Source: a bacterium
Lineage (GTDB): Bacteria; Armatimonadota; Zipacnadia; Zipacnadales; Zipacnadaceae
Direction of reading: 5' to 3'
NCBI GenBank assembly: GCA_030603495.1
Contig: JAUVXR010000007.1
Location: 18,672-82,671, forward strand
Length of the DNA stretch: 64,000 nt
How positions within the stretch are numbered: the first letter of the stretch is position 1; each line of letters opens with the position of its first letter. Under the pieces are notes generated by a model that was not told the origin of the DNA, did not search any database, and saw only the letters and a program-made list of their open reading frames with translations. This document shows, piece by piece, positions 2,823 through 64,000 of the stretch. Position numbers and translations under genes: made by a program.

Positions 2823-4364
2823 TTATACCAGGCTTGCTTCGATTAGCCGCTGGTCTGCGACGAAGCTGGACTTCAGTTGGCGGTACAACTGCTGATATAG
2901 ACAATAGTACGGCTTATAGAGTTCGCAGTGCTCGGGAAGTGGGGGCAATTCATCAACCACTCTAATCGTCGCGGCACAGGCTTCGGGCACACTCGACCAG
3001 ACACCAGTGCCTACGCCGGCCAGCAGGCCGACTCCGAAGGCGGGACCTTCGTCTACATTGATCGTACAGTGCGCCTGGCCGGTGACGTCGGCCTGGATCT
3101 GCCGCCACAGCTTGCTGCGTGCTCCTCCCCCCGAAGCGCGGACCTGCCTGGCCTCAACGCCCATTGTACGAATTATCTCGAAGGAATCGCGCATGGCGAA
3201 GGCAACTCCCTCCATCACTGCGCGGATTATGTGTGCCCTGGTATGCCGGATGGTCAAGCCGAACAGCACGCCCCTGGCGTTGGGATCCGCGTGCGGAGTG
3301 CGCTCGCCAGTGAGATAGGGCAGGAAAACAAGTCCTTCTGCGCCGGCTGGGACGGAGGCGGCGGCTTGTGTCATAAGCTCGTACGGATCGCGGTCCGCAC
3401 TCTCGGCGGCGGCAATCTCCTCGGCGCACAGCGTGTCACGCAGCCAGCGAAATGAGCCGCCTGCCGCCAGCACTACGCCCATAACGTGCCACTTGCCCGG
3501 CACGGCGTGGCAGAAGGTATGCGTGCGCAGCTGCTCGTCCCTCAGCGGCTCGTCGAGGTAGGCGAAGACTACGCCAGAAGTACCTACAGTGGACGAGATG
3601 ATACCAGTTTCTACGATGCCGTTGCCGACGGCGCCCGCCGCTTGGTCTCCGCCGCCGCCGACCACGGGCGTGCCCGCCGCGAGGCCCGTCGCTGCGGCTG
3701 CTGCCTCCGTAATCTGCCCGGTGACCTCGGGCGACTCGTAGACGTCGGGGAGCACCTCGCCGGGCAGGTCAATGCGTTCCAGGATCAGGTCGGACCAGCG
3801 CCGCTGGGGCACGTTGAACAGCGAGGTCCCGGAAGCGTCGCTGACTTCAGTGGCATACTCACCGGTGAGCCGGAAACGAACGTAGTCCTTGGGCAGCAAC
3901 ACCTTGCGCAGCCGGTCATAGTTCTCTGGCTCGTTCTGTCGCAGCCAGATGATCTTGGGCGCAGTGAAGCCGGTCAGAACGGGGTTACAGGTCTCGGCGA
4001 TAATATCGTCTTCACCAACCGCCTCCGTTATCCAGGCGCATTGCTCGGAAGTACGTTGATCGCACCACAGAATCGCCGGGCGGATGACCTCGTCGTCTTC
4101 GTCGAGGAAGACCGACCCGTGCATCTGGCCGGACAACCCAATGCCGGAGATTTCACCGCCGCTGATGTTAGTCTCGGCGAGCACGGCCCGAATCGTCTCG
4201 CAGGTCGCTCGCCACCAGTCGGCCGGGTCCTGCTCTGCCCAGTTCGGGCGGGGGGTAGCCAGGGGATACTCAGACAGTGCGCTCGCGACGATAGCGCCAG
4301 TCTCGTCAATGAGCAGAGCCTTCGTGCCCGTTGTCCCGACATCTAAGCCCAGCAGGTATGCCAC
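2823..4364 (-). CDS. xylB: Xylulokinase (FGGY family)
   Basis: AYLLGLDVGTTGTKALLID, LSGQMHGSVFLD, ILWCDQRTSEQC, FLPYLTGERTPHADPNARG; GTG start at 4364 likely. Confidence 0.9.
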   Translation of the reverse strand: MAYLLGLDVGTTGTKALLIDETGAIVASALSEYPLATPRPNWAEQDPADWWRATCETIRAVLAETNISGGEISGIGLSGQMHGSVFLDEDDEVIRPAILWCDQRTSEQCAWITEAVGEDDIIAETCNPVLTGFTAPKIIWLRQNEPENYDRLRKVLLPKDYVRFRLTGEYATEVSDASGTSLFNVPQRRWSDLILERIDLPGEVLPDVYESPEVTGQITEAAAAATGLAAGTPVVGGGGDQAAGAVGNGIVETGIISSTVGTSGVVFAYLDEPLRDEQLRTHTFCHAVPGKWHVMGVVLAAGGSFRWLRDTLCAEEIAAAESADRDPYELMTQAAASVPAGAEGLVFLPYLTGERTPHADPNARGVLFGLTIRHTRAHIIRAVMEGVAFAMRDSFEIIRTMGVEARQVRASGGGARSKLWRQIQADVTGQAHCTINVDEGPAFGVGLLAGVGTGVWSSVPEACAATIRVVDELPPLPEHCELYKPYYCLYQQLYRQLKSSFVADQRLIEASLV

Positions 4365-16595: not shown

Positions 16596-17582
16596 ATGCA
16601 ATGCCGAGAATGCCGCAAGTGGATGCAACCGTACCTGGCGGAGACGTTGCCGGGGAAACGGAGGGAGGATTTCGACCGCCATCTCTCCGAGTGCGCCCAC
16701 TGCGCCCGGGAACTTGCCGCCAAGCAGGAGATTATTGAGCTGCTCCACGAGTTGCCGGCGCCCACGCCTCCTGCCGACCTGTCCGTCCGCATCAAGCTCA
16801 TGGCCGATGCGGCGTTGAGCCCGTCGGCGCAGGTTACTCGGAGACCGGTGGCGGCGTATCTCAAGCTTGCCGGTGCTGGGGCTGCCGCGTTGCTCTTGGC
16901 GATGGCAACGGTGGTGCTCCTGGGGCCGCCTGGGCCGCAACGGGCCCAACCGGTCGTTGCGGTAGCGCCGGTTGCCCATAGGGATGCGACTATTTCGGAA
17001 CAAGTAGACACGACTCCTCCATCAGTGGTGGTAGTGGAGCGCACCCGTCCGTCACTATCGCGTCCATCTCGGCTTAGGCCGGCGCCCCGTGCCCGGGTGG
17101 TACCTGATCACGCGGCGCCGAAGAGTTCCGCGTCGGTTGCCGAACGGCTGGTAGAGGAGAATCCCGGCGGGCGCACTGCCAGCATAATGCCAGCGGTCGT
17201 GCCGCCTCCGGCGGAGCACTCGGGGCCAACTGTGGTCAACGTGCTCGATAAGGCGCCCAGTGCTCGAATGGTGCAGACGGCCGACGAGCGAGATGCCTGT
17301 GTCCCGGTGATCTTGGCAGAGGCTGCGCCTCGCACCGGCCCTTCCCGGGGGGGAGGACCGGCTCCCACGGCGACGACAGGCCGCGGTGCAGCGGACGAAG
17401 CCGCCGGAACACTGGTGGGCACGCTGGTGGCCAATGCCGTGGTCAACCGCTACGTCCGGGAAGCGGTTATCGAGAGCGATGCGACGATAATGTTGCTGGC
17501 AACATCGGCGCCGGCCTCACTGAGCGATGTGGGTTTCCTGGTCAGAGAGGCCGAGGACGAAGAGGCTAACAATGGGTGGTAG
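16596..17582 (+). CDS. Anti-sigma factor with N-terminal zf-HC2 zinc finger and one TM helix
   Basis: MQCRECRKWMQPYLAETLPGKRREDFDRHLSECAHCARELA; TM LKLAGAGAAALLLAMATVVLLG; adjacent to sigma factor. Confidence 0.8.
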   Translation: MQCRECRKWMQPYLAETLPGKRREDFDRHLSECAHCARELAAKQEIIELLHELPAPTPPADLSVRIKLMADAALSPSAQVTRRPVAAYLKLAGAGAAALLLAMATVVLLGPPGPQRAQPVVAVAPVAHRDATISEQVDTTPPSVVVVERTRPSLSRPSRLRPAPRARVVPDHAAPKSSASVAERLVEENPGGRTASIMPAVVPPPAEHSGPTVVNVLDKAPSARMVQTADERDACVPVILAEAAPRTGPSRGGGPAPTATTGRGAADEAAGTLVGTLVANAVVNRYVREAVIESDATIMLLATSAPASLSDVGFLVREAEDEEANNGW

Positions 17583-29732: not shown

Positions 29733-30270
29733 TAGCCGGAACAATCTGGGCATTGCCACCGAATTGCGTAGGCGGTTCGGCGAGGGGCTCCTTCGGGCGG
29801 AGGAGGATGAGCCTGGTACGCTGCACGTGGAGGTTGATGCGGGCGTCATTGTCGAGGTCTGCCGCTTCCTGTCCGAGCAAGCGCAGCCGCCGTATCCGTA
29901 TCTGTCCGATGCTTTCGGCGCTGACTACGAGGATCACTTGCAGGTGGTCTACCACCTGTTCCGACCCGAGACCGGTGAAGGTGCACTGGTGCGCGCCAAT
30001 ATGGCGCGTGACGAAGCCGTACTGCCTACGCTGGCAGGTCTGTACAACACGGCGAACTGGGCCGAGCGTGAGATTGCCGAGATGTTTGGGGTTACCTTTG
30101 ACGGTCATCCTGATCCCCGTAAATTGTTGCTGCCAGATGATTGGGTCGGCTATCCGCTGCGCAAGGACTATAACCTCCCGGACCACGTGTATCTGAGGCC
30201 CGAGCCGCTGCACGAGGATCCGCAGGCCTTCCTCGCAGGGGAAGCTGAACCCGAAGTGACCGACGAATGA
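29725..30270 (+). CDS. nuoC: NADH-quinone oxidoreductase subunit C
   Basis: [39 protein letters not shown]. Confidence 0.94.
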
Positions 30271-31385
30271 GCGAGACCACGGTAGCCGGCCTGACAACCG
30301 AAGAGATGATCGTTAACGTGGGGCCGCAGCATCCCAGCACTCACGGTGTGCTGCGCTTTGTTGTGACCCTGGACGGCGAGAGAGTCAACGAGTGCGTCTC
30401 TCATATCGGCTACCTGCACAGCTCGTTGGAGAAGATTGCCGAGACGCTGCGCTATGAGCAATATATCACCAACACCGACCGCTTCGATTATCTCAACGGC
30501 CTGGGCAACGAACTGTGCTACGTCCAGGCCGTGGAGAAGCTGCTGGGCATTGAGCCGCCGCTCCGCACCAGGTTCATCCGCACGGTGATGGCCGAGCTTA
30601 AGCGCATATCCAGCCATCTGGTCTATCTGGGCTGTTACGGTAATGACATCGGCGCCGTCACCATATTCCTGCACGCCTTCCGCGAGCGTGAACTGCTGAT
30701 GGATATATTCGAGGCAGTGACCGGGGGGCGGCTGCTGTATAACTACTTGCGCATCGGCGGGCTCCGCAACGACCTGCCCACCGGCTTTGGGGATCAGGTG
30801 CACAGGTTCCTAGACCACTTCCCCCGGCGCCTGACAGAGATGACCGACCTGCTTACCGAGAACCGTATCTTCATCGGCCGGACGCGGGGTGTGGGCATGC
30901 TCACCGCCGAACAGGCGCTCAGCTATGGCGTGACCGGCCCGTCACTACGGGGCTGCGGCGTGCCCTATGATCTGCGCAAGTTGCGACCGTATGCTGCCTA
31001 TGACCAGGTCGAATTCGACATTCCCACATTTCCTGAGGGCGATTGCCTGTCGCGGCATCTGGTACGCATGGAGGAGATGCGCCAGAGTCTGCGAATAGTG
31101 CGCCAGCTTCTGGACAAGATGCCCGACGGCGAAATACAGGCGGAGGTGCCGCGGCGCCTCAGGCCGGAGGCGGGCGAAGTTTACGAGCGGGTCGAGTCGC
31201 CGCGCGGCGAACTCGGTTGTTATCTGGTTAGCGATGGTAGTGACAAGCCCTACCGAATGCACTGGCGGGGCCCGTCATTCTATAACCTGCAGGTGCTGCC
31301 GGAAATGGTACGCGGGGGCCTGGTCGCTGACTTCATTGCCACGCTCGGTAGCCTGGACCCAGTGGCCCCGGATATAGATCGGTAG
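30267..31385 (+). CDS. nuoD: NADH-quinone oxidoreductase subunit D
   Basis: VNVGPQHPSTHGVLRFVVTLDGE...GYLHSSLEKIAE...YRMHWRGPSFYNLQVLPEMVRGGLVADFIATLGSLDPVAPDIDR. Confidence 0.96.
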   Translation: MSETTVAGLTTEEMIVNVGPQHPSTHGVLRFVVTLDGERVNECVSHIGYLHSSLEKIAETLRYEQYITNTDRFDYLNGLGNELCYVQAVEKLLGIEPPLRTRFIRTVMAELKRISSHLVYLGCYGNDIGAVTIFLHAFRERELLMDIFEAVTGGRLLYNYLRIGGLRNDLPTGFGDQVHRFLDHFPRRLTEMTDLLTENRIFIGRTRGVGMLTAEQALSYGVTGPSLRGCGVPYDLRKLRPYAAYDQVEFDIPTFPEGDCLSRHLVRMEEMRQSLRIVRQLLDKMPDGEIQAEVPRRLRPEAGEVYERVESPRGELGCYLVSDGSDKPYRMHWRGPSFYNLQVLPEMVRGGLVADFIATLGSLDPVAPDIDR

Positions 31386-31402
31386 GACAGGCACATAAGG
31401 GC

Positions 31403-31474
31403 GGTAGGACAGGCGTCTCGCCTGTCCACCTTAAACCTTAAACCTTTGGCGACAGGCGCGACGCCTGTCGTACC
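31403..31474. repeat. Two palindromic ACAGGCG-type repeats between nuoD and nuoH
   Basis: ggtaggacaggcgtctcgcctgtcc (31403-31427) and gacaggcgcgacgcctgtcgtacc (31451-31474). Confidence 0.8.
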
Positions 31475-31481
31475 GAAACAA

Positions 31482-32582
31482 ATGGCAAACACAGTGGTGA
31501 AGACAATTCTGGATGTGATTCGCGTCTGGGCGGAAAACCTCGCCCGGCACTGGGGCATACCCCCTGTGTTTGTGAGCATCCTGGCGTGGATTGCCGCTTT
31601 TGTGTTCGTGATTGTACTGGTCCTGCTGATGGTCCTGCTGGCCGTGTACCTGGAGCGCAAGGTCAGCGGCTATATCCAGTCGCGGCTGGGGCCGATGCGG
31701 GTGGGGCCGATCGGTCTGTTCCAGACACCGATGGACGCGCTGAAGATTCTGACCAAGGAAGACATTGTCCCCCGCGACGCCGACAAGATTATGCACACCA
31801 TTGGGCCGGTCTTCTTCTTCGTCGTTGCGGTGGCAGGTTACGTGGTGATTCCGTGGGACCGAGGTGCGATCGCTGCCCGGGTAGTTGACCTGAACATCGG
31901 CGTCCTGTTGGTTATGGCTCTGTCTTCGTTGGGTCTGCTGGGGATTATGGTCGGCGGCTGGGGCTCGAATAACAAGTGGTCGCTGCTCGGCGCGATGCGC
32001 GCTGTGGCCCAGATGATCAGCTATGAAGTTGCCCTGCTGCTAGCGATTGTCTGCGTAGTTATGCAAGCCGGCTCGCTGTCACTGGCGGCGATAACTGCCG
32101 ACCAGGGCGGCAGCCTCCTCCAGTGGAATATCCTGCGCTGGTGGATGTGGCCGGCGCTACTCCTGTATGTGATTGCATCCGCCGCTGAGTCTAAGCGCAT
32201 TCCCTTTGACATCCCGGAGGCGGAAAGCGAGCTGGTCTCTGGATACCACACCGAATACTCGGGGATGAAGTTCGGCTTCTTCTTCCTGGGCGAGTACGCA
32301 CATCTGTTTGTCATCGCACTCATCGGTACGATACTGTTCTTGGGCGGCTGGCAGTCACCACTGCCCGGGTCCATCGCCGACTTTGTCCCTGGTTTCATCT
32401 GGCTGATGGCCAAGGCTCTTGCCATCATCATCATAACGATGTGGGTTCGCTGGACGCTGCCCCGGTTGCGGGTTGACCAGCTTATGCAATTTGCCTGGAA
32501 GGGGCTCGTCCCGCTGGGCTTTGTCGCGATTCTGGTAACTGGGCTGGCCGTTGCTCTGGGACTGGGTGGAGGGGGAATATAG
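31482..32582 (+). CDS. nuoH: NADH-quinone oxidoreductase subunit H
   Basis: LAVYLERKVSGYIQSRLGPMRVGPIGLFQTPMDALKILTKED...PFDIPEAESELVSGYHTEYSGMKFGFFFLGEYAH. Confidence 0.96.
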   Translation: MANTVVKTILDVIRVWAENLARHWGIPPVFVSILAWIAAFVFVIVLVLLMVLLAVYLERKVSGYIQSRLGPMRVGPIGLFQTPMDALKILTKEDIVPRDADKIMHTIGPVFFFVVAVAGYVVIPWDRGAIAARVVDLNIGVLLVMALSSLGLLGIMVGGWGSNNKWSLLGAMRAVAQMISYEVALLLAIVCVVMQAGSLSLAAITADQGGSLLQWNILRWWMWPALLLYVIASAAESKRIPFDIPEAESELVSGYHTEYSGMKFGFFFLGEYAHLFVIALIGTILFLGGWQSPLPGSIADFVPGFIWLMAKALAIIIITMWVRWTLPRLRVDQLMQFAWKGLVPLGFVAILVTGLAVALGLGGGGI

Positions 32583-32585
32583 CGG

Positions 32586-33062
32586 ATGTGGGGCTACGTG
32601 CGCGATATCTGGCAGGGCGCCAAGAGCATCGTCGTGGGTCATATTGTGACTTTTCGCAACTTCTGGCGACCGAAGATCACCGACCGCTACCCCCACAGCG
32701 ATGCAGGCAAGAATTGGCGGCCAGGGCCGGGTTACCGCGGTGGCTTTGCCCTGCTGAAAAGTGATGAAGAAGACCGAGAACTGCGCTGCACGGCTTGCAT
32801 GAGCTGCGCGCGGGCCTGCCCGGTGGGTTGCATTCACATTGAGGGCGAAGGTAAGGGCAAAGAGCGCCATCCCGTGTCGTTTTACATAGACATGGGCTTG
32901 TGTGTCTATTGCCATCAGTGCGTAGAGGCCTGCCCCAAGGATGCGCTGACGATGACCGACGAGTACGAAATCTCCGGGACGAGCCGCGCAGTGCTGGTCC
33001 GTAATCTGGAGGAGCTTGTGGCTGCCGGTGAGGGCCGAACGGAGGTCTCACGAGTAGTATGA
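32586..33062 (+). CDS. nuoI: NADH-quinone oxidoreductase subunit I
   Basis: Two 4Fe-4S motifs CTACMSCARACPVGC and CVYCHQCVEACPKDAL. Confidence 0.95.
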   Translation: MWGYVRDIWQGAKSIVVGHIVTFRNFWRPKITDRYPHSDAGKNWRPGPGYRGGFALLKSDEEDRELRCTACMSCARACPVGCIHIEGEGKGKERHPVSFYIDMGLCVYCHQCVEACPKDALTMTDEYEISGTSRAVLVRNLEELVAAGEGRTEVSRVV

Positions 33063-56695: not shown

Positions 56696-56770
56696 TCCCC
56701 GGTAGCTCAACGGTAGAGCAACTGGCTGTTAACCAGTAGGTTGGTGGTTCGAATCCGCCCCGGGGAGCCA
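56696..56770 (+). tRNA. tRNA-Asn (anticodon GTT), CCA encoded
   Basis: TCCCCGG...CTGTTAA anticodon loop...GGTTCGAATCC T-arm...CCGGGGA-G-CCA; acceptor and anticodon stems pair. Confidence 0.96.
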
Positions 56771-58360
56771 TGATAGGTCAATTGTGGGAACTGCTACTAA
56801 CTGGTTAACAGTTCCCGTTTCGTTGGGAGCCAAGCCGAGGCTGCACAGAGCAGCTATATCGCCCGCCAGGCGCACCTCGTGGCCCTCAATCTCTATCTTC
56901 TCCAGCAGCAAGTTCAGGTATCGCTTAGACAGCCCATGGTCATCCGACATGAATACATCGCGCAAGGTCCGCTGGATATTGCGCAAACTGTCCGTCTTGA
57001 AGAGGTAGGGGGGAATCTGCCGCGGGCCCTGCGCCCGCTCAACCTGCTCCAGCAGTTCTGACTCTTCTGCCTTGAGTTCGCCCAGCCTGTCACCGACCAG
57101 CTCCAAGTCCACAGCGCCCGTTTCGATGACCTCGTAATGCCTCCGTATCCGGGTGCGGGCATCTTCTACTCGGCGCTTTACGGCCCGGATATTGCCATCA
57201 TTTCGTCGCTTGAATTTCGCTAATTCCCTCGCCAGTTGTCGCACAATCTCGCGGATCCGGTCGATGGTAAACAGCTTATCAGCCAGGTGCTCAAGAATCT
57301 GCTGCTCCAGCTCTTCTTGTGGTGTTCGGTTGCCCTCACACGCCGACTTCCCCTTGCGACTGTAATTCGAACAGTTGTAATAGCGATAAGCTCCTCCTTT
57401 TGCTGTTTCAATCCCCATCCGTGCCCCGCACCTGCCGCACATGAGCAGCCCGGCCAGCAGGGCAGGTGATCCCGTGACAGACGGTGGTGTCTTCACAGAG
57501 GGGCGGCGCTTTCTTCTCAGGCTTGTCGCCTCGTCGAATACCTCCCGGCTCAGGATCGGCTCCACCGGGACTAAGACCCAGTCCTCTCGTGGCTTCGTCT
57601 CTCCGGTTTTCCCGTTCCTTTTGTTGTAGTAGTACTCGCCCACGTACACGGGATCGCGCAGCCGCTCCTGCACACGCTGTTTGGACCACTCTTTGTCCCC
57701 TCGGAACAGGCACCCTTCCCGGTTCAGGACCCCCGTCAAACGCTTCGCCCCGATTTGTCTACCGTTCAGGCCGTTGACGTACAGATCGAACATCCTTCGA
57801 ACGACGGCGGCCTCATCCTCATCCGGCACAAGCTTGCTCTTAATGTTGCCTCGCGCATCCTCCCCCTTCTCTACCTTGTACCCGAAGGGAGGCGTCGAGC
57901 CGTTGAAATACCCCTGCCTTGCATTCTCTTTCATTCCGCGCAGAGTGTGGAATGCGTTGATATCACTTTCGTACTGGTCTTGCAGTTCGAAGATGCCTTC
58001 GATGAAGTTGCCCGTTGGGTGATCTGAAACTTCCTGCGTAATGCTGACAACGCGGACGCCCTCTCTCTTCAAGCGGCGCTTGTAGACCTTCGCCCCCAGG
58101 GCGTCACGGAAGAACCGCGATGTAGTGAGGACAAGGATAGCCTCCACCCCTGACGTCTTGTCCAGCACAAGCTGCATCATCTCCCGGAACACGGGACGGT
58201 TGTCGTCAGTGGCCGACGCGCCCTCCTCCCGAAACTCATCTACTACTTCGTGACTGTTCCGCCGGCAGTAGTCCCGCAGTTGCTCGAGCTGATCAGGGAT
58301 GGAAAGGTCGTGCTCGGCCTGACGTGCTGTCGATACTCTGGCGTACAGAACCACCTTCAA
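56729..58360 (-). CDS. Large serine recombinase (integrase/resolvase family)
   Basis: VVLYARVSTARQAEHDLSIPDQLEQLRDYC...LTTSRFFRDALGAKVYKRRLKREGVRVVSITQ; zinc ribbon LLMCGRCGARMGIE...YYNCSNYSRKGKSACEGN; C-terminus runs antisense into tRNA-Asn. Confidence 0.94.
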   Translation of the reverse strand: MKVVLYARVSTARQAEHDLSIPDQLEQLRDYCRRNSHEVVDEFREEGASATDDNRPVFREMMQLVLDKTSGVEAILVLTTSRFFRDALGAKVYKRRLKREGVRVVSITQEVSDHPTGNFIEGIFELQDQYESDINAFHTLRGMKENARQGYFNGSTPPFGYKVEKGEDARGNIKSKLVPDEDEAAVVRRMFDLYVNGLNGRQIGAKRLTGVLNREGCLFRGDKEWSKQRVQERLRDPVYVGEYYYNKRNGKTGETKPREDWVLVPVEPILSREVFDEATSLRRKRRPSVKTPPSVTGSPALLAGLLMCGRCGARMGIETAKGGAYRYYNCSNYSRKGKSACEGNRTPQEELEQQILEHLADKLFTIDRIREIVRQLARELAKFKRRNDGNIRAVKRRVEDARTRIRRHYEVIETGAVDLELVGDRLGELKAEESELLEQVERAQGPRQIPPYLFKTDSLRNIQRTLRDVFMSDDHGLSKRYLNLLLEKIEIEGHEVRLAGDIAALCSLGLAPNETGTVNQLVAVPTIDLSWLPGADSNHQPTG

Positions 58361-58625: not shown

Positions 58626-59369
58626 TCAGTCCCTTGCTAAGGCTCGGGCTAGGGCTTCTCGCTGCTCTTCGGACAGCTTCGCCAGCGTCTCGGCAAGCCG
58701 CCGCACTTGGGCCGACTCTGGGCCTTGCTCTTCCGTGTCATACAGCCTGCGGATCGCCTCGTCCGCATCCCGCTGATTCAGGTTGCCGTATATATCAACG
58801 GTCGTCTTTATGCTGCTATGCCTCATGGCCTTCTGTACGACCGCCATGTTTTCCCCGCGCCTGAGTAGCCGATTGGCAAAGGTGTGGCGCAGTGTGTGAG
58901 GACTTATGCGCCGCTCTATGGCCGCCTTGCTTGCCAGTCGATTCACTAGCTGCCTGACGTACCGAGCGCTGATCGGCTTGCCTGGGTGAAGCTGCTGGCC
59001 ATCCCGGGCGAAATGGCCGGCTGCCTTGCCCCTGCTTATGGTGCAAAATACCGCTCCCCTGCCCAGGCCCAGTCTATCCCGCTCCTGCAGCCACACGCTC
59101 AGCTTTGCCGCAGCTGGGCACGTTAGGGCTATCTTGCCGGGCTTGCCGCCCTTGCCGTCGCGGATGTGCACATGAGTGAGTTGGCCGGCCTCCCGGAGCA
59201 GATCCCGGGTCTCCAGAGCCACGGCCTCGCTCACCCGCAGGCCAGTGTCTGCCATTACCTGCAGCAGCGCGATATTGCGTTTGCCGGTGGGATAGCGGGG
59301 GCTGATCTGCCCAAGCAGTGCGGCCAGCTCCTCGTCGTTCAGGGCGTCTTCGGCAGTAGGTCTCTTCAT
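58626..59369 (-). CDS. Tyrosine recombinase (XerC/D-like integrase)
   Basis: NIALLQVMADTGLRVSEAVALETRDLL...RRISPHTLRHTFANRLLRRGENMAVVQKAMRHSSIKTTVDIYGNLN; RBS aaggagg upstream. Confidence 0.94.
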   Translation of the reverse strand: MKRPTAEDALNDEELAALLGQISPRYPTGKRNIALLQVMADTGLRVSEAVALETRDLLREAGQLTHVHIRDGKGGKPGKIALTCPAAAKLSVWLQERDRLGLGRGAVFCTISRGKAAGHFARDGQQLHPGKPISARYVRQLVNRLASKAAIERRISPHTLRHTFANRLLRRGENMAVVQKAMRHSSIKTTVDIYGNLNQRDADEAIRRLYDTEEQGPESAQVRRLAETLAKLSEEQREALARALARD

Positions 59370-59581: not shown

Positions 59582-59902
59582 TCAGCCTCGCCCGCTCTCT
59601 CTCCACCTGGTCACGCTTAAGAATATATCTACTGGCCTTCGCGTCTTCGGCCCGGTTAGCTGCCAGTACCAGCACAGTACCCTACCGTTGCGGCGTTTGC
59701 CCATCGCAACGCTTATGGGCAGCCCCCGCTTCGCTCTCCGGAGCGTCTTATGCGAAATGCCCCGACTCCTGGCCTCCTCGATGATCTCAGCCGACGGATG
59801 CCAGCCGCCATCGGCCAGGAGGGACAGGAGCAGTGCTCTGGCTTGCTCCCGCTTGTATCCCTTTTTATGGATGCGATCGTTTTCTTCGTTCTCGCCCATC
59901 AT
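59582..59902 (-). CDS. Small protein with probable winged-helix DNA-binding fold
   Basis: REQARALLLSLLADGGWHPSAEIIEEARSRGISHKTLRRAKRGL...WYWQL. Confidence 0.5.
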   Translation of the reverse strand: MMGENEENDRIHKKGYKREQARALLLSLLADGGWHPSAEIIEEARSRGISHKTLRRAKRGLPISVAMGKRRNGRVLCWYWQLTGPKTRRPVDIFLSVTRWRESGRG

Positions 59903-59942
59903 GCGCTCCCTACTTCCAGGTGGCCGCCAATCGGTACCGCCG

Positions 59943-60194
59943 TACCGTCCTGGTACCGCCCCGGCGAAAGGCTATGCGGGGCATGGTCTCAGTACGGCAG
60001 GACGGTACGGACGATATGTTGTCTTAGCCTTACCCCTCTATCCCTTCTCTCTTCTTTCTTCTCTATTCTTTATTCGTGCGTGAACGTTCATAAGGTAAAG
60101 GCAAGTTACCGTCCTACCGTCCGTACTGTCCTGTCCCCTTGTGGCGTATGGTCTTCTGCCGGGACGGTATTTCTGGCTACCGTCCGTACCGTCC
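59943..60194. repeat. Iteron-like array of TACCGTCC/GGACGGTA octamers, candidate replication origin
   Basis: Exact octamer at 59943, 60107, 60115, 60178, 60187 and inverted at 60000, 60162; variant TACTGTCC at 60124. Confidence 0.65.
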
Positions 60195-62662
60195 TATGAT
60201 TCTTCAGGGTTGCTTGGGAGAATAATGCGTATCTTCCCATCATCCGGCGCCTCCTCGTCGCTGTCCGTCAGCTGCTCATTCGGTGGTTGATCTGCGTCGC
60301 CACGCCATATGCGTATAATCTTATCTTCCCCTATCTTCTTTCCGGTCTGGATGTGGAGACCGATGTCTTCCAGGTTGGCTTCAGCCTGGTCCAGTCGCTT
60401 CCGTGCCCAGGCTGCGCTCCCTGGCCATCCCTTGCCCTCGGTGGAGATGCCCGTAACCGTTGCCATGGACCGCGCCTGTTTGAGCAACCGCTCAGCGGTG
60501 CCTTGCCACGTGCCTTCATGCACTCCTACAAGCTCTATAACCGCCCGCGTGAATGCCTGGCCCTCCAACGCAACCCAGGTTAGCTCCTCCAGGTTGGCCT
60601 TGTATGCCACGAGGAACTGCCCCCGTTCGTAACCTAGTGCTACGGAAATAGCCTCTCCCCACTGGGCGAAGTCGGTCATCCGGTAGTCCCTTGGCGTGGC
60701 GATGCTCGGGTAGACGCCCAATGCGCCGACTAGGGCTTCCAGGCAGGCCCCCAAGATACCAGGCAGCGCCTGCTTGAACGCTTCCGTCAACTCTCGCTCC
60801 GATTGCCAGCGCCCGGTGAGCCTGTCCAGGTTTATGATTAGGCATCGATCCAGAAAGTCAGGGCTGTATGCGGTATTCACGACGCCATTCATACCAATAA
60901 CTCGTCGATAGTGGTACGTGATGGTGTCGCTGTCCGTAAACAACTTGCGCTTGGAGTACCCCGCTCCCGTGATGGCACGACAGAAAGTATCCGACCTCCA
61001 CTGAGCGAAGGAACTAATGTTGTCAAATAGGGCCATCCAATTGTTGTTGAGTTGGAGTACCAGCTGGTCATCATCGCGCGGCGGGGCCAGCGTGGGCGTG
61101 CTGGACGGATCGACTATGGCGCGCAGCACCCCAAAGCTGTAGGACTTGGCTGACCCCTGGGATCCTGTGAGGTTCAGGATTGGATGGGCGATGCCTGGGA
61201 TAAAGCAGGATACCAACCAAACCAGCACGAGCAGCCTGGTATCCTCGTCGTCCGGTACGTTGAGGAACTGGAATATAGCTTGGAGTGCCTTCCGCGCATC
61301 GGCAGGGCGGGTGGGTTCCATCTGTGGCTGCTGGTGTTGGTAGCGGCGGAAGAGGATGGGATAATCGCCGGTGACCTGCCAGCCTTGGGCTGTTATCTTC
61401 ACCACGCGGTAGTCGTCGTCGGTCAGGTCATAGTAAAGTACTGTCCTATCCTCAGCCCACGCCACACGATTGTGAAGCTCACGGGTGGGCCCCTCGGCGC
61501 ATATAGCTTCAATTCCCAGGCAGGCATCGGTCATCGACTGGGCGCTGGGTGGCTTGCCCTCGATAGCACGGAACAACCTGGTCAGCCAGCGCTTGATCTG
61601 CATCTGGCGGGGACCTACGGGCCAGACCTCCTGATGATTACCCACGGGCATTTGCACGAAGGGTTCGCCGTACACATCCACGAAGAATTCCGTGGCATGC
61701 CGCTCAGCCAGACGTAGCAGCCGCTCGCTCTCCTTGGGCTGCTCGGCCTTCGTATCCTTAGCCGGTGGCGTATAGAACTCGGTGCGGCCTGCCAGGGCCT
61801 TGGCTATCTGCTGCTGGCCCCAGGTCGTATTGCCGCGCTTGCTATCCCATTTCTCGCGCATCAGTCCGCTGCGGCGGAAGAGCCGGTCCATCTGTTGGCG
61901 ATCACCGGCGCACCAGAAGGTCAGGTGATCAAGCAGGGCCAAGGTTGCCTCACTCGGCGATGCGTAGCTGTGCTCACCCGTCCATAGTCCCTCTATGGCA
62001 GCCCAGTTCTTCGCCCGTTGCATGGCTGCGAGCACATCCTCATCGGAGAGGGCACTGTGGCGCTCCGGTTGCTCTGCCGGAGCCTCTTCCTCCGGGGGCG
62101 TGAAGATCCGGGCGTGAAGTGCAGCTAACTGCTTGGCCCGCTTCTCGATCGTGGTAGCGGTGCCTGTCAGATGATTGCCCGTGACGGTGAAGTAGCGACC
62201 GCTGTCATATAGCTCGACGCCCTGCCCGGTGGCTTTGCGACCACCAGGTGGCAGAGCGCCGAGGCAGATGACATGGATACCCTTACCCGAGGGGGAGATC
62301 TCCGTGTAACTATCAAGCCCGTCCACGATTTGTTGGGCCTGAGGCGTCATCTCGCCGGTCTCTGGATCACGGCACCCATCCAGGTCCACACCCACGAACC
62401 CGCCCCCGAGCACGAAGCCGATGCCGTCGTAGTCGGCCGAGCGCTGGCAGGCAGTATCGTAGGAGGCCCACGTCTCGGGGTCGGTAGTGGAAGCGCGTTT
62501 GCCCGTGGCGGGATTGTAGGGGACCTTCGTGCGCTTGTCGCCGCGCCCCTCGTACCGCCAGTTCACCCAGCGGGACTGTCCCTTCAGATCGGAAGGGATA
62601 TCGTCGAGGTCTGGCCTGGGTTGGCCGGTTAGCCTTTTGCCTGTCGGGTCATTGTGCATCAT
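60194..62662 (-). CDS. Mobile-element replication protein: AEP/PrimPol-like domain fused to P-loop helicase-like ATPase (NrS-1 polymerase-like architecture)
   Basis: DLKGQSRWVNWRYEGRGDKRTKVPYNPATGKRAST...GGGFVGVDLDGC...EISPSGKGIHVICLG...GVELYDSGRYFTVTGNHL; Walker A-like NLTGSQGSAKSYSFG; start placed at internal ATG 62662. Confidence 0.8.
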   Translation of the reverse strand: MMHNDPTGKRLTGQPRPDLDDIPSDLKGQSRWVNWRYEGRGDKRTKVPYNPATGKRASTTDPETWASYDTACQRSADYDGIGFVLGGGFVGVDLDGCRDPETGEMTPQAQQIVDGLDSYTEISPSGKGIHVICLGALPPGGRKATGQGVELYDSGRYFTVTGNHLTGTATTIEKRAKQLAALHARIFTPPEEEAPAEQPERHSALSDEDVLAAMQRAKNWAAIEGLWTGEHSYASPSEATLALLDHLTFWCAGDRQQMDRLFRRSGLMREKWDSKRGNTTWGQQQIAKALAGRTEFYTPPAKDTKAEQPKESERLLRLAERHATEFFVDVYGEPFVQMPVGNHQEVWPVGPRQMQIKRWLTRLFRAIEGKPPSAQSMTDACLGIEAICAEGPTRELHNRVAWAEDRTVLYYDLTDDDYRVVKITAQGWQVTGDYPILFRRYQHQQPQMEPTRPADARKALQAIFQFLNVPDDEDTRLLVLVWLVSCFIPGIAHPILNLTGSQGSAKSYSFGVLRAIVDPSSTPTLAPPRDDDQLVLQLNNNWMALFDNISSFAQWRSDTFCRAITGAGYSKRKLFTDSDTITYHYRRVIGMNGVVNTAYSPDFLDRCLIINLDRLTGRWQSERELTEAFKQALPGILGACLEALVGALGVYPSIATPRDYRMTDFAQWGEAISVALGYERGQFLVAYKANLEELTWVALEGQAFTRAVIELVGVHEGTWQGTAERLLKQARSMATVTGISTEGKGWPGSAAWARKRLDQAEANLEDIGLHIQTGKKIGEDKIIRIWRGDADQPPNEQLTDSDEEAPDDGKIRIILPSNPEES

Positions 62663-62790
62663 TATCCCCACGTTCAGGCGGCGGGCTGGGGGACAGGTAG
62701 GGACCGTGATGATCGGTTCCGCCCCCCAGCTCCCACCACATCGCCGACGCTTAGATTCTTCCACGCCAGCGGGGGCTCTGTAAATACCCC

Positions 62791-63138
62791 TTACCCGGCT
62801 TGCGCTGGCTGCTCCTGCGGAGTAGCCTCCGCACAGACCAGGCGTGACTCCCACGCCATTGGATCTTCCTGTTCATCTCGTTTAGAGGCTAACAGGATAT
62901 CGGACAAGATCTCCAGGAGTCCCTTCTGGTAGGCCAGGAAATCCTGCACGGCACAGCACAGATGGTACTTCAAGTCTGCGTCGGCCATGGAGCCTGACTC
63001 CCAGCCATTTAGGAGTCGGTTTACCGTCCGCTCAACATCCTGGCCACCATCCAATCCCCGAGCCATCCTCCCCAAGTGCTGGATATGCTCACGTCGTTTG
63101 TCCTCTTTCAGTGATTCCCATACGATGTTTTCGGTCAT
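62791..63138 (-). CDS. Hypothetical protein of mobile element
   Basis: MTENIVWESLKEDKRREHIQHLGRMARGLDGGQDVERTVNRLLNGWESG; good RBS aaaggaggtgacgaaATG. Confidence 0.6.
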   Translation of the reverse strand: MTENIVWESLKEDKRREHIQHLGRMARGLDGGQDVERTVNRLLNGWESGSMADADLKYHLCCAVQDFLAYQKGLLEILSDILLASKRDEQEDPMAWESRLVCAEATPQEQPAQAG

Positions 63139-63376: not shown

Positions 63377-63847
63377 TCAAGCGTTCTTGTCCACTATCGC
63401 CCACAGGCTGTCTGAATGCTTCTCTAACAGCGTCTCCCCATCTTCCAGAGGTTCACACAGCAATCCGAACAGTCTAGCCCGGTAGTGTGACCCCGGGTAG
63501 CTCTTCCCGCGAATCCAGCGGAAAATGATACTGGGCGCTGGCTCCTGTGTCTGCCTGTCACGCTGCATCATCCCCAGCTTTCTGCACAGCTCTCGCTCTC
63601 GGTGATGTTCTTTTAGTACGCGTGTTACTTCATTCCAGTGCAGAGGGAGGTTTCCCACTGCCACTCCGTGAAGCGCCTGACCAAGTCCCGAAAGTGAGCC
63701 TGGCGGGGATAGCCAGTTCCAATACACTACATACCTGTTCCGAGCCCTCTCCGTGATGACTTCTCCTGGTATCTTCCCGGCCTTGATCCATCGCTTGACT
63801 GTCCGCGCCGATACTCCTAAGAGTGGAGCAGCTTGTTTGGGGGGCAT
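63377..63847 (-). CDS. HTH (MerR/excisionase-like) DNA-binding protein
   Basis: MPPKQAAPLLGVSARTVKRWIKAGKIPGEVITERARNRYVVYWNWL; start assignment uncertain. Confidence 0.65.
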   Translation of the reverse strand: MPPKQAAPLLGVSARTVKRWIKAGKIPGEVITERARNRYVVYWNWLSPPGSLSGLGQALHGVAVGNLPLHWNEVTRVLKEHHRERELCRKLGMMQRDRQTQEPAPSIIFRWIRGKSYPGSHYRARLFGLLCEPLEDGETLLEKHSDSLWAIVDKNA

Positions 63848-64000
63848 GGGGTAGGCTAGGACCTGGCCCAGGCCCTCGGCCAGGTCGTGCCCACCACATG
63901 AAACATCCCTTAGGAGAACAAGTATCACACACCAGACCTCCGGAGTGGTCGCCTATAAGACTCGGTGAAGCGCCTATACAGACAGTGGGCGTAGTTCATC

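Follow-up and report, generated by a model that had tools for sequence, protein, structure and literature searches.

An array of octamer repeats reaching into the stop codon of a gene for a fused primase-helicase is very probably the replication origin of an integrated element beside a tRNA-Asn gene, and sequence comparisons suggest that the encoded Rep protein would bind, melt and prime the DNA there. The array lies in a 64-kb window, the whole stretch of 64,000 nucleotides analysed, from a bacterium of the Armatimonadota. On its anatomy it is classed as a predicted Rep-adjacent iteron-type origin that is organised like the origins of PICI and SaPI; the element itself is not classed as a PICI. 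Read from left to right, the order is tRNA-Asn, serine recombinase, tyrosine integrase, a 106-aa open reading frame, the array, the Rep gene and an HTH_17-type protein. The features are as follows.

56696-56770, + strand: tRNA-Asn, possible integration site
56729-58360, - strand: large serine recombinase, whose reading overlaps the tRNA
58626-59369, - strand: tyrosine integrase of the element (PF00589, 5.7e-29)
59582-59902, - strand: 106-aa open reading frame, no Pfam family, rival candidate binder
59934-60194, no strand: octamer (iteron) array, proposed replication origin
59943-59950, + strand: TACCGTCC, exact
59954-59961, + strand: TACCGCCC, one mismatch
60000-60007, - strand: TACCGTCC, exact
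60009-60016, - strand: TATCGTCC, one mismatch
60017-60106, no strand: AT-rich spacer between two repeat blocks, candidate melting site
60107-60114, + strand: TACCGTCC, exact
60115-60122, + strand: TACCGTCC, exact
60124-60131, + strand: TACTGTCC, one mismatch
60162-60169, - strand: TACCGTCC, exact
60178-60185, + strand: TACCGTCC, exact
60187-60194, + strand: TACCGTCC, exact, one base in common with the rep stop codon
60194-62854, - strand: fused primase-polymerase/helicase (Rep) gene, longest reading
60194-61747, - strand: C-terminal half of Rep, with a P-loop ATPase and a conserved C-terminal segment, proposed to bind the octamers
61766-61954, - strand: NrS-1-type helix-bundle domain (HBD, PF22763; 3.2e-27)
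63377-63928: HTH_17-type protein

An earlier note on this DNA had described seven exact copies of the octamer in about 250 bp, and both the number and the coordinates are right. TACCGTCC, or its complement GGACGGTA, is found in seven exact copies and three one-mismatch copies within 59943-60194 (252 bp). At least one variant had been claimed, and there are three, at 59954, 60009 and 60124. Tandem copies had been placed at 60107/60115/60124 and 60178/60187; these positions hold, but the copy at 60124 is the variant TACTGTCC and not an exact one. The array does reach the stop codon of the PrimPol-like gene, as the note had it, with the copy at 60187-60194 overlapping the stop by one base, and from there it extends towards the integrase.

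The whole window contains 10 exact copies of TACCGTCC against 1.48 expected, with a maximum of five in 100 shuffles. A genome-wide count of the octamer had been set beforehand as a check, and it gave 63 copies in 2,666,162 bases; seven in 252 bp is thus roughly 1000 times the background, so that the word is not equally common across the genome. Its tandem form, TACCGTCC N0-2 TACCGTCC, has this array as its sole site in the genome. When the octamer repeated most often near the stop of the gene was sought blindly, the result was again TACCGTCC, and none of 100 dinucleotide shuffles reached seven copies. The spacer between the two repeat blocks (60017-60106, 90 bp) is 59% AT compared with 40% AT in the window, and the best 40-mer in it ranks among the top 0.1% of all 40-mers in the window. 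The bipolar arrangement of the copies is imperfect. Features of iteron origins found at this locus are repeats clustered above chance, an array touching the stop codon of a primase-helicase gene and an AT-rich region.

At its end the serine recombinase reading runs into the tRNA-Asn (56696-58360), and the element carries a tyrosine integrase too. A second tRNA-Asn 3′ end, as an attachment repeat, was sought in the assembly and none was found; the tRNA was the sole match in the Rfam scan.

The primase-polymerase part of Rep matches the phrog_1829 primase in PHROGs (4.9e-86) and is followed by the HBD, as in NrS-1-type PrimPols. The head (PF22761), DUF5906 and tail (PF22762) domains present in the NrS-1 protein are absent from the window Rep, which by its domains is NrS-1-like in the N-terminal half only. 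The C-terminal half has a P-loop sequence and no Pfam family above the cut-off. As to homology with SaPI Rep, it gives a weak VapE-like match (E 0.04, below the Pfam cut-off), and a PDB profile search showed just generic P-loop matches among the 60 listed. Structure prediction without an alignment gave no confident fold for the C-terminal half or for its last part (mean pLDDT 38 and 43), and the predicted structures were therefore not used. As primase similarity begins only at Rep residue 83, the real start may be an ATG near 62662; the reading upstream of it (62662-62854) is without similarity to primases, and this ATG is probably the true start.

Homologues were collected from genomes of the phylum, plasmids and phages, and their flanking DNA was compared; collection scans with a single protein yielded one distant relative apiece. 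At least five copies of some octamer are present at 16 of 54 Rep 3′ ends, compared with one of 54 Rep 5′ ends and two of 209 control open-frame ends. With a threshold of at least four copies the numbers are 26, 3 and 13, respectively. About half of the related genes are without an array under the strict test. The octamer word differs from element to element, but its position and layout recur in plasmids, phages and integrated elements. Rep 3′ ends carry GTGACGCT 12 times in a Chlorohelix plasmid, GGTGACGC 12 times in two Streptomycetaceae plasmids, and, among others, TGTAGGGT eight times, AGTACGAC seven times and TTGACCGA six times in genome contigs. The plasmid pFP11 has nine copies of AGGGACGC. 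In some relatives the array is inside the last 300 bases of the Rep gene. Copies on the two sides are oppositely oriented in many arrays, and the largest gap is AT-richer than the locus mean in 20 of 26.

Several other loci were noted. A second Rep relative in the same genome (L041:6853-8565, contig C24) is 46% identical in its C-terminal half; 85-192 bases past its stop another octamer, GCAGCTAA, is present three times, too few for certainty. The Methanothrix plasmid pH6Ac (L117:812-1010) displays seven copies of AACTTTGC upstream of the rep gene, which places the array on the 5′ side there, and the arrays at L078:8875-9021 (CTGTGTAA, seven copies) and L064:16783-16973 (ACCTTCCC, seven copies) are away from the 3′ end of a primase gene. 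A 17-mer scan of 2.9 million viral contigs, from the window word alone, led to L004 and L007; in both (in L004 at 3385-3726), 13 GGACGGT copies in both orientations directly follow a Prim-Pol/D5 gene. TACCGTCCGTACCGTCC is found in six viral contigs; L006 and L008 resemble coding repeats, and for L005 and L009 no link to a primase was established. GC skew, as a test for an origin, gave no support in the Chlorohelix plasmid, pFP11 and NrS-1. Nothing clear was seen in pFP11 and NrS-1, and in the 375-kb Chlorohelix plasmid the skew is lowest at 197.9 kb, close to a second replication gene (CyRepA1) and away from the array. This plasmid (NZ_CP128401; L172, L174-L180) looks composite, with three par loci in addition to CyRepA1.

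Phage NrS-1 resembles the window locus in that the two PrimPols have the HBD family in common and an array directly follows the gene; its C-terminal domains and its octamer are different. All 11 copies of GTTACACT in the 37-kb NrS-1 genome are within 17062-17377, directly after the PrimPol gene. NrS-1 PrimPol requires an initiation word of 8 nt in the template (PMC7102993), namely TTTGGTTA (PMC8718748). A single occurrence of it was counted on both strands of the NrS-1 record, at 17198, at the junction of two repeats within the array; a 2020 paper reports two for the genome (PMC7102993). The overlap of TTTGGTTA with the repeated word GTTACACT is incomplete. No description of the array was found in the NrS-1 literature covered, which excludes the 2017 word-mapping paper. 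In the deposited record (AB746912; L171:17055-17456), a hypothetical CDS, NRS1_29, spans the whole GTTACACT array and may be a spurious gene over the origin.

The deposited record of Lactobacillus phage A2 has a rep_origin feature at 32208-32717, which takes in ACGGGAGGA repeats and starts where the primase gene (29923-32235) has its 3′ end. Here an annotated origin coincides with an array, and the gene beside it encodes a primase related to that of NrS-1; the repeat unit is different, however, and only the N-terminal half of the primase is related to the window protein. Phages phi105 (AGTAACA, seven copies) and PSA (CTATCCACC, five copies) have the same layout as A2. The Streptomyces plasmid pFP11 is related through the other half of the protein: the C-terminal half is homologous (32.6% identity, 5e-45) and its nine downstream octamers contain GACG. 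It differs from the window in that primase and helicase are separate genes, the array is about 550 bases from the stop, and pFP11 is a theta plasmid and not an integrated element. The pFP11 RepA is reported to bind its iterons (PMC3583192), which may or may not be these octamers.

The array is taken to work like a PICI/SaPI origin (PMC6092414) and like the rep/iteron locus of pFP11 (PMC3583192). In SaPI Rep and SCC Cch2 the C-terminal domain binds iterons directly downstream of the protein's own gene, perhaps as two hexamers, and the SCC primase-polymerase prefers iteron sequences as start sites (PMC7581432). PICI/SaPI origins are immediately 3′ of rep, with primase and initiator sometimes fused and an integrase gene alongside (PMC6092414; PMC7581432), and, as in the window array, two iteron sets are located around an AT-rich region. 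The window protein differs in that its C-terminal half belongs to a family without a Pfam model and its primase half is NrS-1-like. From the PICI gene set the element has the integrase, an HTH protein and pri-rep; no packaging, interference or helper-phage gene was seen up to position 64000, where contig C39, and with it the window, ends. The SCCmec Cch2/CCPol-MP system is similar in the binding of direct repeats downstream by the helicase C-terminal domain and in the preference of the primase for starting there, but it has three 5-nt iterons, different protein families and separate genes.

Which part of Rep reads the octamer is suggested by the distribution of a GACG core. Arrays beside proteins with the window-type C-terminal half contain GACG in 15 of 17 cases, and arrays beside other C-terminal halves, all of them joined to an NrS-1-type primase part, in none of nine (Fisher p 1.8e-5, an optimistic value because the sequences compared are related to one another). 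This association indicates that the C-terminal half of Rep probably binds the octamers. GGACGGT can also accompany a D5-type helicase, as in L004. In L156, one of the two exceptions among the 17, five same-strand copies of ATTGAAAC are found 488-789 bases past the Rep stop, each preceded by GGTGAGG; this looks like a CRISPR repeat end beside the Rep gene. A candidate natural specificity pair, which is not proof, is provided by plasmid pFP12 (L162) and a plasmid of Streptomyces cellulosae NBC_01680 (L169). Their Rep proteins are 71% identical, with a segment that diverges after the invariant stretch WPTTGKVLSDRLKRLQPTLAARG, and their consensus words, GGGGACGCAG and GGTGACGCAG, are one base apart when aligned. 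Residues separating TGACG from GGACG words were searched for among the Reps, with nothing found beyond relatedness.

The earlier note had proposed an origin or an array bound by Rep or a regulator. The homologous loci and the A2 rep_origin favour the origin and Rep part; the 59582-59902 protein as regulator is disfavoured, as no relative of this open reading frame was found at other arrays. That the octamers are operators through which the 106-aa protein regulates transcription in the element is quite improbable. Its open reading frame starts about 40 bases from the array and resembles an HTH family faintly in PHROGs (E 0.09), and short sites in clusters can serve as operators. However, no small gene family common to the regions downstream of arrays was found, promoter-like sites around the array are no commoner than chance, and the octamer core tracks the C-terminal half of Rep. 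An explanation by chance or low complexity, a coding repeat or a terminator structure is hardly credible: pairing between some of the inverted copies is conceivable and one terminator-like site coincides in part with the array, but such sites are at chance level (two found, 1.1 expected), seven copies were never reached in shuffles, and many relatives carry arrays of other words at the same position. As a sufficient explanation it is refuted by the shuffles and by the control comparison of gene ends.

Also unlikely is a reading in which the octamers serve the primase half, through the HBD, as single-strand template words instead of serving the helicase half as duplex sites. The location of the required NrS-1 template word inside the NrS-1 array and the start-site preference of the SCC enzyme are both in keeping with such a role. 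On the other hand, NrS-1-type HBDs with other C-terminal halves go with unrelated words, members of the C-terminal family with other or separate primases have the GACG core in common, and the overlap between the repeated and start words of NrS-1 is partial. The two roles are not mutually exclusive.

The preferred reading is thus an origin served by Rep. The mechanism proposed for it draws on what was observed, namely the array, where it lies and how it is laid out, the arrays of other words in relatives and the GACG association, and on SaPI Rep and SCC Cch2 (PMC7581432). Rep would bind the octamers, most likely through its C-terminal half, and would form one ring at either repeat block. The AT-rich stretch between the blocks would then melt and each ring would unwind outward, with the N-terminal primase-polymerase initiating DNA de novo at the repeats or next to them.

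This kind of origin is already known; what is of interest is the connection to NrS-1 and how widely the layout occurs. The layout has been said to be limited to phage-inducible islands (PMC6092414), and the present arrays extend it to phages, to Streptomyces and Chloroflexota plasmids and to integrated elements. Tentatively, element-specific 3′ octamer arrays might represent a general origin class of phages, plasmids and integrated elements with NrS-1-type PrimPols, in which the same repeats serve both to load the helicase half and to position the primase half for its first DNA start; this possibility is put forward at somewhat less than even confidence. If it is true, the known NrS-1 initiation word would be part of an unrecognised iteron origin. 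As the mapped word is inside an 11-copy array, how a polymerase that primes itself locates its starting point on double-stranded DNA can be tested directly, and the pFP12/NBC_01680 plasmid pair offers a test of specificity. For finding origins in a large group of mobile elements that has been little studied, the locus supplies a sequence rule, namely to search for repeated octamers where the primase-helicase gene ends.
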